Shown here: piece by piece, positions 17,601 to 20,706 of the stretch | How the letters are laid out: each line of letters begins with the position of its first letter | Numbering within the stretch: position 1 is the first letter of the stretch | NCBI GenBank assembly: GCA_023475835.1 | Contig: JAMCVM010000098.1 | Location: 1-50,295, forward strand | Reading direction: 5' to 3' | From: Bacillota bacterium | GTDB lineage: Bacteria; Bacillota; Sulfobacillia; Sulfobacillales; Sulfobacillaceae | Length of the DNA: 50,295 nt | Position numbers and translations under genes: made by a program | The notes under the pieces: model-generated | The model's database searches: none | Told to the model about the DNA's origin: nothing | The model's input: only the letters and a program-made list of their open reading frames with translations

Positions 17601-18041
17601 ATGACCGCCTCCGAAACCATCAAAGATACGGCTTTGCCCAGAATTCTCGTCTTTTCCACGAATAACATTTCGGACCCCGGGGTGGATCTTGCCGGCAGTG
17701 CGCATCTCCACTACTCACCGAACGTGGTGACGATTTCCGTGCCTTGTTCCAGCGGCATTCGGCCCAGTCTCATTGAATACGCTCTGCAAGAAGGGTTTGA
17801 CGGCGTTTTTGTGGCGGCAGATGGCGAAGAATGTGCGTATCTCTCCGATTGTAGCGAGCGTACGGCACGGAATCTTGCCACGGTGCAACAGTGGATGGAG
17901 GCGCACCATTGGGAACCGCAACGGCTACGAATGGGAGCGATTTGCTCGGTGTGCGCGGAGTCCTTTGTCAGTTATGTTCAGGGGTTTTCTCACACGCTGG
18001 CTCAGTTGGGTCCGCGAGGAGGACAAGATCATGGAGTATGA
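17601..18041 (+). CDS. Divergent MvhD/FlpD-like electron-transfer protein
   Basis: This 146-residue protein aligns by eye with the MvhD family (ILVFSTNNISDPGVDLAG, YSPNVVTISVPCS, EEGFDGVFVAAD-like QEGFDGVFVAADGEE). MvhD normally holds a [2Fe-2S] cluster and links a hydrogenase or formate dehydrogenase to HdrA. The N-terminal Cys pair of the family (CNWC) is replaced by Ser/Asn/Ile residues. Five Cys remain or are new: C49, C78, C84, C115 and C118. The cluster is therefore altered or absent. It overlaps the following hdrA-like gene by 11 nt, so the two are translationally coupled and probably interact. Confidence 0.72.
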   Translation: MTASETIKDTALPRILVFSTNNISDPGVDLAGSAHLHYSPNVVTISVPCSSGIRPSLIEYALQEGFDGVFVAADGEECAYLSDCSERTARNLATVQQWMEAHHWEPQRLRMGAICSVCAESFVSYVQGFSHTLAQLGPRGGQDHGV

Positions 18042-20706
18042 CACACTTGTCATCGGCAGTGGGATTAGTGGGATGGAATCGGCCATCAAGTTGGGGGACA
18101 TGGGCTACCGTGTCCTATTGGTCGAAAAAGAAGCCAGCATTGGCGGGAAGATGATTTTATTAAGCAAGGTTTTCCCGACTCTCGATTGCGCCAGTTGCAT
18201 CTCCACCCCCAAAATGGCGGCAGCGATTCATCATCCCAACGTGACCGCACTGACCTATGCCGAGGTCGAAAAAATCCGAAAACTAGACGGTCGCTTCCAG
18301 GTGGAGGTGGTGAAGCATCCCCGGTTTGTGGACGAGGCCGCTTGCACGGGTTGCCAGCAATGCGAGACCGCTTGCACGGTATCGGTGCCTGACCAGTTTA
18401 ACTCGGATTTAGTCGCTCGCCACGCCGCGTATATTCCCTTTCCGCAAGCGGTGCCCAAAAAAGCGGTGCTCGAGCGAGCGGGAACGTCGCCTTGTACGGA
18501 GACTTGCCCTGCGGGAGTCAAGGCGCACGGCTATGTCTCCCTGGCGCGCAGCGGAGAATATGAGAAGGCTTTTCAACTGGTGTTGCAAAGTACGCCCTTG
18601 GTGGGCACATTGGGTCGAGCGTGTTTTGCTCCTTGCGAGTCGGAATGCTCACGCGGAAGTCTAGAGGGACCGGTCTCCATTCGGCGGATCAAACGCTATA
18701 TTGCTGACGATCATTACGATGCACACCGTCGCTTGCAAGCCCTTCCCGAGATTACGCATACCGAACGTGTGGCTATTGTGGGTTCGGGGCCGGCGGGTCT
18801 GACCGCAGCTTGGCAACTAGCGCGCAAGGGCTATCCGGTGACCATCTTTGAAGCTGAAGACCAGGCCGGCGGGGCACTATGGACCATTCCAGCGTATCGC
18901 TTGCCGTCAGCAGTCATTGGGCAAGACCTGGACAACCTTCGTCAAATCGGCGTGAGCATTCGGACGAATACCCCAGTGCACCGAATCGAGGACCTCTTCG
19001 ACCAGGGTTTTTCGGCGATCGTGTTAGCCGTTGGGACGACGTCTCCGGTGCAGCTTTTGGTTGCGGGGGCCCACGCCTCTCATGTCGACAATGCCCTCCA
19101 CTTTCTGAAAGCCGTCAAGACCGGGGTCGGAACGCGTTTGGAGGGAATGACGGTGGCAGTGGTCGGGGGAGGCAATGTGGCTATTGATTCGGCTCGCAGC
19201 GCACTGCGACTAGGCGCCCGGGTGGTGCGCTTGATCAGCCTGGAAAGTCGGGAGGCAATGCCTGCCTTTTCTTGGGAGGTTGAGGAAGCGGAACAGGAGG
19301 GCGTATTCGTACTGAATGGTTGGGGGGTAGAATCCATCGGTGAATCAGAACTTCACCTGATGGGTTGCGACGCGACCTTAGACCGTGAAGGACGGTTCGA
19401 TCCCCAATACGATCGGACCAGAGTTCAGTCGGTGCCGGCGGACCGCGTAATTGTCGCGGCGGGGATGCGGCCTGCGACCGAGGCTTGGCAGTCGACACTC
19501 ACGTTGGCGGGTGGAGGTCGAATCGCGGTGGAGTCCGAAAGTCAGGCCACGTCTTGGCCGGGAGTCTTCGCTGCAGGGGATGCGGTCTCGGGTCCAACCA
19601 GCATTGCCGAAGCCGCTGGCGCCGGAAAAAAGGCAGCCGAGGCGGTGGAGGCCTGGCTTAGTGCCAGTGCTTTTTCTCCCGGACCCATGCGTCTGCCGAG
19701 AGTGTCCCAGGAGGAAGTCTTGGCGCGCCAATCCCAGTATGCGCTTCGTCCGCCCAGGGGAGGGAACAAAGCGCTCGTCCTTCATCCTCACGACTTTACC
19801 GAGGTCGAACCGGCACTGACGGAGTCCGAGGTGCGTGACAACAGCGGTCGCTGTTTGGATTGTGGCGTGTGCTCGGAGTGTCAGGAATGCGTTGCCGCCT
19901 GTCCGGCGGACGCGATTCATTTGGATGCGAGGGAGGAACGCTTCGAAACCACCGTGGATTCGGTTATCATCGCGACCGGATTCAAATTGTTTGCCGCCGA
20001 TCGTAAGCCATTGTATGGCTTTGGACGATTTAAGAATGTCATTACTGGGATGCAGATGGATCGGTTATTGGCTCCTACTCGACCCTATCATACCGTCTTG
20101 CGACCTGGAGACGGGAAGGTGCCCGAGAGTATTGCCTACATTATGTGCACCGGTTCCCGGGACCAGACTGTGGGCAATCCGCTGTGCTCCAAGATCTGCT
20201 GTATGTATTCCAATAAGCAAAACCAGCTGATCATGGGCGCACTTCCGCTCGCGGACGTTACCGTCTACGACATTGACATGCGCACCACGGGCAAGGGATA
20301 CGAAGAGTTCTACGTGCAGACCCGGGCCATGGGCACCACCTTTATTAAAGGGCGAATCGCGGAAATCGTCGAGAAAGATAACGGAAATCTGGTCGTCCGC
20401 TATGAAGACATCGACCACGGAGGCCAGATTCTTGAGCAAGAACACGACTTGGTGGTGTTGGCGGTCGGAGTGCAGCCGAACCATGATGTGGAGCGTTTTT
20501 TTGAGCCGGGAGTGTTGGAATTCGATGACTATGCTTACGTCAACGAAGCCGATGAGATCTTAAGTCCCGGACAAACCAATGTGCCCGGGGTGTACGTGGC
20601 GGGTACCGCGGCGGGTGCGAAGGACATTCCGGAGTCGATTTTGCACGCCGGATCCGCCGTGGCTCAAGCCTCAGCCTATATCGAAGGGAGGCGACTTCCC
20701 GTATGA
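18031..20706 (+). CDS. HdrA with a nested GltD-type NAD(P)H oxidoreductase domain
   Basis: The protein has 891 residues. Residues 1-~145 are HdrA-like: FAD motif GSGISGMESAIKLG, the C53/C56 pair (DCASC), a cluster motif C105-x2-C108-x2-C111-x3-C115, and the typical YIPFPQAVP. From about 150 to 555 there is a complete GltD/NfnL-like module: CTETCPAG and GRACFAPCESEC for a [4Fe-4S] cluster, FAD motif VGSGPAGLTAAWQLA, NAD(P) motif VVGGGNVAIDSAR and C-terminal FAD motif GVFAAGDAV. A ferredoxin-like motif follows at about C608 (CLDCGVCSECQECVAACP), and the rest of HdrA resumes to the end. The insertion could let the Hdr complex exchange electrons with NAD(P). ATG 18031 is chosen for GAGGAGGAC just upstream; the frame is open further 5' only through overlap with the mvhD-like gene. 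Confidence 0.88.
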   Translation: MEYDTLVIGSGISGMESAIKLGDMGYRVLLVEKEASIGGKMILLSKVFPTLDCASCISTPKMAAAIHHPNVTALTYAEVEKIRKLDGRFQVEVVKHPRFVDEAACTGCQQCETACTVSVPDQFNSDLVARHAAYIPFPQAVPKKAVLERAGTSPCTETCPAGVKAHGYVSLARSGEYEKAFQLVLQSTPLVGTLGRACFAPCESECSRGSLEGPVSIRRIKRYIADDHYDAHRRLQALPEITHTERVAIVGSGPAGLTAAWQLARKGYPVTIFEAEDQAGGALWTIPAYRLPSAVIGQDLDNLRQIGVSIRTNTPVHRIEDLFDQGFSAIVLAVGTTSPVQLLVAGAHASHVDNALHFLKAVKTGVGTRLEGMTVAVVGGGNVAIDSARSALRLGARVVRLISLESREAMPAFSWEVEEAEQEGVFVLNGWGVESIGESELHLMGCDATLDREGRFDPQYDRTRVQSVPADRVIVAAGMRPATEAWQSTLTLAGGGRIAVESESQATSWPGVFAAGDAVSGPTSIAEAAGAGKKAAEAVEAWLSASAFSPGPMRLPRVSQEEVLARQSQYALRPPRGGNKALVLHPHDFTEVEPALTESEVRDNSGRCLDCGVCSECQECVAACPADAIHLDAREERFETTVDSVIIATGFKLFAADRKPLYGFGRFKNVITGMQMDRLLAPTRPYHTVLRPGDGKVPESIAYIMCTGSRDQTVGNPLCSKICCMYSNKQNQLIMGALPLADVTVYDIDMRTTGKGYEEFYVQTRAMGTTFIKGRIAEIVEKDNGNLVVRYEDIDHGGQILEQEHDLVVLAVGVQPNHDVERFFEPGVLEFDDYAYVNEADEILSPGQTNVPGVYVAGTAAGAKDIPESILHAGSAVAQASAYIEGRRLPV

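Follow-up and report, generated by a model that had tools for sequence, protein, structure and literature searches.

A 50,295-nucleotide stretch of the genome of a Bacillota bacterium from the family Sulfobacillaceae (assembly GCA_023475835.1, contig JAMCVM010000098.1; hereafter the window) carries hdrA[GltD], the gene of an HdrA subunit that holds a complete GltD/NfnB-like module inside its own sequence. The protein is a GltD-inserted HdrA (HdrL or type III HdrA) in a split, probably heterodimeric form, and it stands in an operon, tusA-mvhD-hdrA[GltD]-hdrA-hdrC-hdrB-dsrE2, that is conserved in its clade. The encoded complex most likely links the chemistry of persulfide sulfur to the NAD(P)H pool. 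The fusion itself is already known as HdrL (Strittmatter 2009), as the NfnB-inserted HdrA9-11 (Chadwick 2022) and as type III HdrA (Lyu 2025). The novelty lies in the setting, a well-delimited clade with its operon. No description of the operon was found in the searches made of open-licence papers, and a multi-phylum gene cluster of this kind, tied to sulfur carriers, appears not to have been described before.

An HdrA with a nested NAD(P)H module

The homology to HdrA comes in two pieces: residues 5-149 align with residues 146-290 of 5odc_A, and residues 610-881 with residues 289-562. This matches the split before about residue 150 and after about residue 600 that had been predicted. The first part of HdrA ends in PFPQAVP and the insert starts directly after it. 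The insertion site falls between the two cysteine motifs of HdrA's ferredoxin, itself an insertion, so that the module is nested in a domain that is already nested. Between the two halves, Pfam places Fer4_20 at residues 152-229 and Pyr_redox_2 at 246-532, and the NCBIfam model PRK12771 matches residues 144-644. The module contains the FAD motif GSGPAG, R290, the NAD(P) motif GGGNVA and SLE at the NADP-specificity position. Its best solved relatives are NfnABC (9bov, 9n5u), Stn (8oh5) and NfnB (4ylf, 5jca).

The same picture emerges from the AlphaFold2 model of the 891-residue protein (69 aligned sequences), which reached a predicted local distance difference test score (pLDDT) of 90.7 and a predicted template modelling score (pTM) of 0.86, with both folds intact. 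Superposition by VIA-align on the HdrA 8rvu_a gave a Z of 51.0 and a root-mean-square deviation (rmsd) of 1.8 over 424 residues spread across positions 2-888 of the model; on 9bov_A it gave a Z of 48.3 and an rmsd of 2.1 over 466 residues at positions 150-624. Alignment and superpositions thus bear out a nested rather than an end-to-end fusion, and two genes joined end to end are ruled out by the HdrA homology on both sides of the module. The module between the HdrA halves is indeed complete, its FAD and NAD(P) motifs being intact and conserved, and from these motifs an NAD(P) site inside an Hdr complex, as had been proposed, is very likely.

The N-terminal domain and the C-terminal ferredoxins of HdrA lie outside the fused chain, and both are found in a separate partner HdrA encoded next to it (Table 1). 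The presence of these domains in one chain was not treated as defining for HdrL or type III HdrA, since fused and split forms both occur.

Table 1. Features of the hdrA[GltD] operon (positions in the window).
Feature	Position	Strand	Remarks
hdrA[GltD]	18031..20706	+	891 aa; HdrA with nested GltD/NfnB-like module
HdrA part 1, aa 1-148	18031..18474	+	start of FAD domain; C53/C56, Cys197-type motif; C105-C115, first ferredoxin motif
Nested GltD module, aa 149-605	18475..19845	+	cluster residues C155, C159, C198, C202, C206, K221
HdrA part 2, aa 606-891	19846..20703	+	RCLDCGVCSECQECVAAC (C608-C624); flavin lysine K729
tusA	17340..17594	+	84 aa sulfur carrier, first gene of the cluster; Pfam TusA 68.9 bits (cut-off 28.6)
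MvhD-like subunit	17601..18041	+	146 aa; FlpD 95.4 bits; alignment to 5odc_D
hdrA partner	20703..22466	+	587 aa; HdrA N-terminal domain and C-terminal 2x[4Fe-4S]
hdrC	22712..23101	+	129 aa; two CxxCxxCxxxC motifs; NCBIfam HdrC 49.3 bits (below cut-off of 160)
hdrB-like	23145..24122	+	325 aa; CCG 213-296; HdrB fold
dsrE2	24138..24626 (probable start 24141)	+	sulfur carrier; DrsE_2 201.2 bits

Conserved residues and the proposed role of the flavins

Residue conservation was counted over 97 nested rows, the window included. All 97 contain the four cysteines of the first ferredoxin motif (C105/C108/C111/C115), the five of the GltD module (C155, C159, C198, C202, C206), the cysteines C608, C614, C617, C620 and C624, and the flavin lysine K729. 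C611 and R290 are each kept in 96 rows, and C53/C56 in 91, the remaining six being gaps. C608 and C611, an additional CxxC pair that precedes the ferredoxin motif, are retained in the nested proteins. Alignment with StnC and dihydropyrimidine dehydrogenase makes them the probable remaining ligands of the second GltD cluster, next to C155 and C206. A lysine at the HdrA flavin, as in K729, has been described (PMC6405883).

At the flavin-near cluster, the Glu typical of NfnB is missing from the window and K221 takes its place; over the 97 rows this position holds Lys in 89, Arg in four and His in four. In StnC, a lysine (K170) appears to ligate this cluster, its FAD is non-bifurcating, and NfnB has a Glu there (PMC10482914). 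Because the GltD module carries this StnC-type cluster lysine, and the FAD of StnC does not bifurcate, the GltD FAD is read here as gating NAD(P)H, with bifurcation assigned to the HdrA flavin.

The cofactor of the window protein is likely NADH. The NADP-specificity position reads SLE in the window instead of YRR. Within the clade of 20 described below it varies (RR in 13, LE in five, EK in one and one not printed), and the assignment of NADH is for this reason not extended to the whole clade. Lyu 2025 (PMC12054007) reads GxGxxG instead of GxGxxA in the GltD domain as a preference for NAD; the extracts of that paper do not say which motif is meant, and the window's domain has GSGPAG first and GGGNVA second.

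A clade linked to sulfur carriers

In a tree built on the HdrA core with the insert left out (111 rows), obtained by a quick search with Shimodaira-Hasegawa-like approximate likelihood ratio test (SH-aLRT) support and no bootstrap, the window protein and 19 others form one group (SH-aLRT 100, on a long stem of 0.71). The same 20 form one group in the GltD tree (103 rows). They span Bacillota, Chloroflexota, Bacteroidota, Verrucomicrobiota and others. TusA is encoded at 19 of the 20 clade loci, the window included, versus one of the 75 other nested loci (Fisher p 9e-18, to be taken as an aid and not as a probability, as the rows share ancestry and the search started from the window's TusA). The single clade locus without it is cut at the contig start. 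A DsrE-family gene accompanies 18 of the 20, the window counted: DsrE2 at 13 and a short DsrE at five.

Because tusA and dsrE-family genes accompany the clade, the gene context supports a link to sulfur chemistry, and protein-bound sulfane sulfur is the likely substrate. Of the coupling of sulfur oxidation to NAD(P)+ reduction that had been suggested from the sequence, the sulfur link therefore stands; between oxidation and reduction the data do not decide. The tusA gene, immediately upstream of mvhD in the window, is not mentioned in the original prediction.

The exit module of the complex differs within the clade. HdrC and HdrB are present at 13 of the 20 loci, and a QmoC-like membrane protein occupies their operon position at the other seven (L060, L064-L067, L070, L071). 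These QmoC-like proteins have six hydrophobic segments and, at 158-207 bits, stay short of the 300 that NCBIfam sets as cut-off. A QmoC-like gene is absent from the window. Some clade members encode a cysteine synthase or cysteine desulfurase near the operon. At two Bacteroidota loci a SufS-like cysteine desulfurase lies upstream of dsrE2 and tusA (L065, 4995-6488; L070, 5025-6506); the former was identified by a protein scan and the latter as its homologue.

The partner subunits

The partner HdrA, which had been taken for a canonical second HdrA, is the complementary half that supplies the domains missing from the fused HdrA. Neither the inserted ferredoxin nor the Cys197 motif is present in it, and H332 stands in for the flavin lysine of HdrA. 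Over the 21 readable of 22 rows this position holds His in 17, Phe in two, Gln in one and Tyr in one, and never Lys. In other lineages, the two HdrA proteins of the window are found as a single chain of about 1,490 residues in the same order. Since the gene order of the split layout equals the domain order of this chain, the two proteins very probably form one unit. Complementary HdrA pairs of this sort have been described in ANME archaea (Chadwick 2022, PMC9012536).

The MvhD-like protein lacks the canonical N-terminal CCxxC of MvhD, as seen in the alignment to 5odc_D. Its other cysteines (49, 78, 84, 115 and 118) are all present in 20 of 20 MvhD rows, which rules out a degenerate protein. 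This clade-invariant set of five may bind a different cluster.

In HdrC, eight cysteines are kept in 15 of 15 rows, and the window protein has no hydrophobic segment. The window HdrB has no Cys before residue 219, and its cysteines 219, 254, 255, 289 and 292 all belong to the C-terminal CCG motif; this second CCG set alone is retained in 13 of 13 clade rows. The HdrB model (pLDDT 80.4) superimposes on 5odc_B with a Z of 19.2 and an rmsd of 2.7 over 230 residues, and its best structural match is EtfD 9ojn (Z 24.6, rmsd 3.2, 265 residues). Among the five CCG-bearing frames of the genome, that of hdrB is the shortest (332 aa versus 421-457). Heterodisulfide reduction reportedly proceeds by a mechanism with two noncubane clusters, said to have been set out by Wagner in 2017. 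As HdrB retains one of the two cluster motifs, such a mechanism would not be available to it, arguing against ordinary heterodisulfide reduction.

DsrE2 keeps C123 in 14 of 14 rows. The FlpD and DsrE2 matches of the operon are the sole ones of either type in the genome. The window genes mostly have a purine-rich, ribosome-site-like stretch upstream.

Proposed mechanism and alternatives

In the proposed mechanism, the fused HdrA would contribute the Cys197 motif, the inserted ferredoxin, the flavin lysine K729 and the NAD(P)H module, while the partner HdrA would contribute the N-terminal domain and the C-terminal ferredoxin clusters. Together they would make up one bifurcating HdrA unit. NAD(P)H would exchange a hydride with the GltD FAD, which acts as hydride gate. 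From this flavin, one-electron steps would lead to the Cys3-Lys cluster (C159/C198/C202/K221) and then to the second cluster (C155/C206 with C608/C611). Subsequently, the electrons would pass through the inserted ferredoxin clusters to the HdrA flavin, predicted to be the sole bifurcating or confurcating site. The exit from this flavin may run over HdrC to the one-cluster HdrB; relatives with the QmoC-like subunit would instead use it to pass electrons to quinone. A third branch would lead over the clusters of the partner HdrA and over MvhD to a further partner. TusA and DsrE2 would deliver or take the protein-bound sulfane sulfur. As a whole, this reading of a split GltD-inserted HdrA, whose NAD(P)H module is wired to one bifurcating HdrA flavin and which couples persulfide sulfur to the NAD(P)H pool, is held with somewhat more belief than doubt.

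Several points weigh against it. R290 is retained as in the bifurcating NfnB, though StnC retains it too. The residues that separate NAD from NADP differ among clade members. The assignment of C608/C611 to a cluster depends on alignment with StnC and with dihydropyrimidine dehydrogenase. Gene neighbourhood is no proof that TusA and DsrE2 are substrates, and with the window's own TusA as query a divergent TusA elsewhere could have escaped.

The retained R290 and the homology of the insert to NfnB would also suit two bifurcating flavins, one in an NfnB-like nested module and one in HdrA, as has been suggested for the ANME-1 HdrA9-11 (PMC9012536). This is improbable, given that 89 of the 97 rows have Lys for the NfnB Glu, the state of the non-bifurcating StnC FAD (PMC10482914), and that the operon genes include none recognised as NfnA-like. 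A different direction of flow is conceivable as well. In a reductive enzyme, an NAD(P)H-dependent persulfide reductase, NAD(P)H would reduce TusA- or DsrE2-bound persulfide (or sulfur) to sulfide, possibly with reduction of ferredoxin. The host of one clade locus (L061), the sulfate reducer Desulfofundulus, is in line with this, as is the proposal that HdrL carries electrons from NADH to sulfite (Strittmatter 2009). However, the quinone link of the QmoC-like members suits oxidation equally. Moreover, the sulfite-reductase-type matches of the window's own genome are confined to one frame of 557 aa, so no dissimilatory pathway is in sight there, and the reductive enzyme is regarded as rather unlikely. 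A search of the genome for sulfur oxygenase reductase gave no match, but its control was silent too and nothing follows from it.

It is likewise doubtful, though conceivable, that NAD+ sits at the low-potential branch, with mid-potential electrons from sulfur being split uphill to NAD+ and downhill to HdrB or quinone. The GltD module would then stand at the contact site for ferredoxin of canonical HdrA. The point of attachment of the insert is precisely the inserted ferredoxin domain, which Lyu 2025 describes as the ferredoxin-reducing site and as possibly blocked in type III HdrA (PMC12054007). This attachment to the ferredoxin-exchange domain allows NAD(P)H to be the low-potential partner, and the quinone-type exit in seven of the 20 clade members fits as well. 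Against this, NADH is the mid-potential partner in the view of Lyu 2025 (PMC12054007).

Distribution and layouts of the fusion

The search for the same domain order, proposed with the original prediction, found that the fusion recurs. It was matched in six of 41 related genomes at E<=1e-60 and, with two candidates scored per genome, in 51 of 398 genomes of the phylum at E<=1e-120. Among 25 genomes of the family, the window's own included, matches were confined to that genome and to one other, which has an intact copy of 75 percent identity. A scan of named genomes matched at least 584 stretches, 571 of them encoding relatives, and the nested frame is intact in 78 of the 80 best loci. Of the two exceptions, L087 is cut by a contig end and L069 has one gene in two frames; in the latter, a clade member, the split of hdrA[GltD] (8031-10733) reflects a frameshift or a sequencing error. 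The genome is a draft of 246 contigs, which might suggest an assembly or annotation artefact fusing two genes. The 75 percent identical copy and the recurrence in independent assemblies rule this out, leaving it a negligible probability.

The hosts among the best loci include Bacillota, Chloroflexota, Bacteroidota, Verrucomicrobiota, Thermodesulfobacteriota and Actinomycetota, and further Aminicenantes, Bathyarchaeota, Hadarchaeota, Methanophagales, Thermoplasmatota and others. Three layouts are found: hdrA[GltD] and hdrA as separate genes, as in the window; a single HdrA[GltD]-HdrA chain of about 1,490 aa, often adjoining metF; and a lone HdrA, about 1,130 aa long, that includes the N- and C-terminal domains. 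At L046, L049-L052, L056 and L057, the chains of about 1,490 aa adjoin metF, mvhD and hdrC, which suggests that the nested NAD(P)H module is part of many MetFV-HdrABC-MvhD complexes. Such clusters are discussed in PMC5736913, PMC8578096 and PMC5861303. At L058, two copies of the fusion (5892-10367 and 15584-19999) flank a fused HdrA without insert on one contig.

A single origin of the insert is not supported by a quick tree that needs 10 changes between nested and plain forms, the tree being unrooted and holding 15 plain rows only. An empty insertion site was looked for beside dnaG, which had no match in the same-genus genome; in the relative with 61 percent identity, dnaG and the operon lie on different contigs.

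Comparison with known systems

The HdrL of Strittmatter 2009 is an HdrA fused with an NADH-binding module of the glutamate synthase type and, as in the window, adjoins mvhD; it was proposed to pass electrons from NADH to sulfur respiration. HdrL1 is followed by mvhD and dsrABC, whereas the form in the window takes up two genes and is accompanied by tusA and dsrE2. The extracts of that paper do not state that the fusion is nested, as it is in the window. In type III HdrA (PMC12054007) and in the ANME-1 HdrA9-11 (PMC9012536), GltD or NfnB lies in the HdrA ferredoxin domain, as in the window, and NAD(P)H is proposed as donor or acceptor. The type III set of Lyu 2025 comprises nine archaeal sequences, with NADH proposed; the window represents a clade of bacteria that has sulfur carriers and a complementary second HdrA. 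StnC, from the Stn transhydrogenase of Sporomusa ovata (PMC10482914), resembles the window protein in its GltD domain with FAD, NAD(P) site and flavin-near lysine, wired to another bifurcating module. Its GltD is joined to NuoG/HydBC parts, that of the window to HdrA.

HdrABC-MvhADG (5odc) shares the HdrA core fold, HdrC, the HdrB fold and an MvhD-like protein with the window. The window differs in its NAD(P)H module, one-CCG HdrB, altered MvhD cysteines and two different HdrA subunits. The HdrA of Moorella thermoacetica reportedly has diaphorase activity on NADH, as Mock is said to have found in 2014. Like the window, the sHdr systems combine Hdr proteins with TusA and DsrE. However, their order hdrC1B1A-hyp-hdrC2B2 is not matched by the window, and the solved sHdr HdrA 6tjr_A has no insert (Z 41.4, rmsd 1.6 over 333 residues against the model). 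QmoABC has an HdrA-like pair and a counterpart of the QmoC-like subunit seen in the relatives. A survey of Sulfobacillus (PMC4378227) lists other hdr clusters with tusA and dsrE, which its extracts describe without an NAD(P)H module. The sHdr-type and YTD clusters in the extracts of PMC6776052 and PMC12998232 have other gene content than the window operon.

Implications

Published for a few lineages, the GltD-in-HdrA fusion turns out to be common across many phyla of bacteria; in one branch, its operon joins NAD(P)H, a bifurcating-type HdrA flavin and sulfur carriers. The StnC-type lysine leads to a prediction of which flavin bifurcates in all such fusions, contrary to the earlier suggestion of two sites. 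Tentatively, and with more reservation than the mechanism itself, the clade may be an undescribed cross-phylum family of sulfur-carrier-linked bifurcating complexes. In these, TusA/DsrE-bound sulfane sulfur would feed NAD(P)+ directly, or the reverse, and the exit would be interchangeable between a one-cluster cytoplasmic HdrB and a QmoC-like quinone subunit. With seven genes, the operon is small enough for expression and for testing how protein-bound sulfane sulfur is linked to NAD(P)H. If NAD(P)+ is indeed reduced directly from sulfane sulfur, sulfur oxidisers would need no reverse electron flow through complex I to form NAD(P)H.

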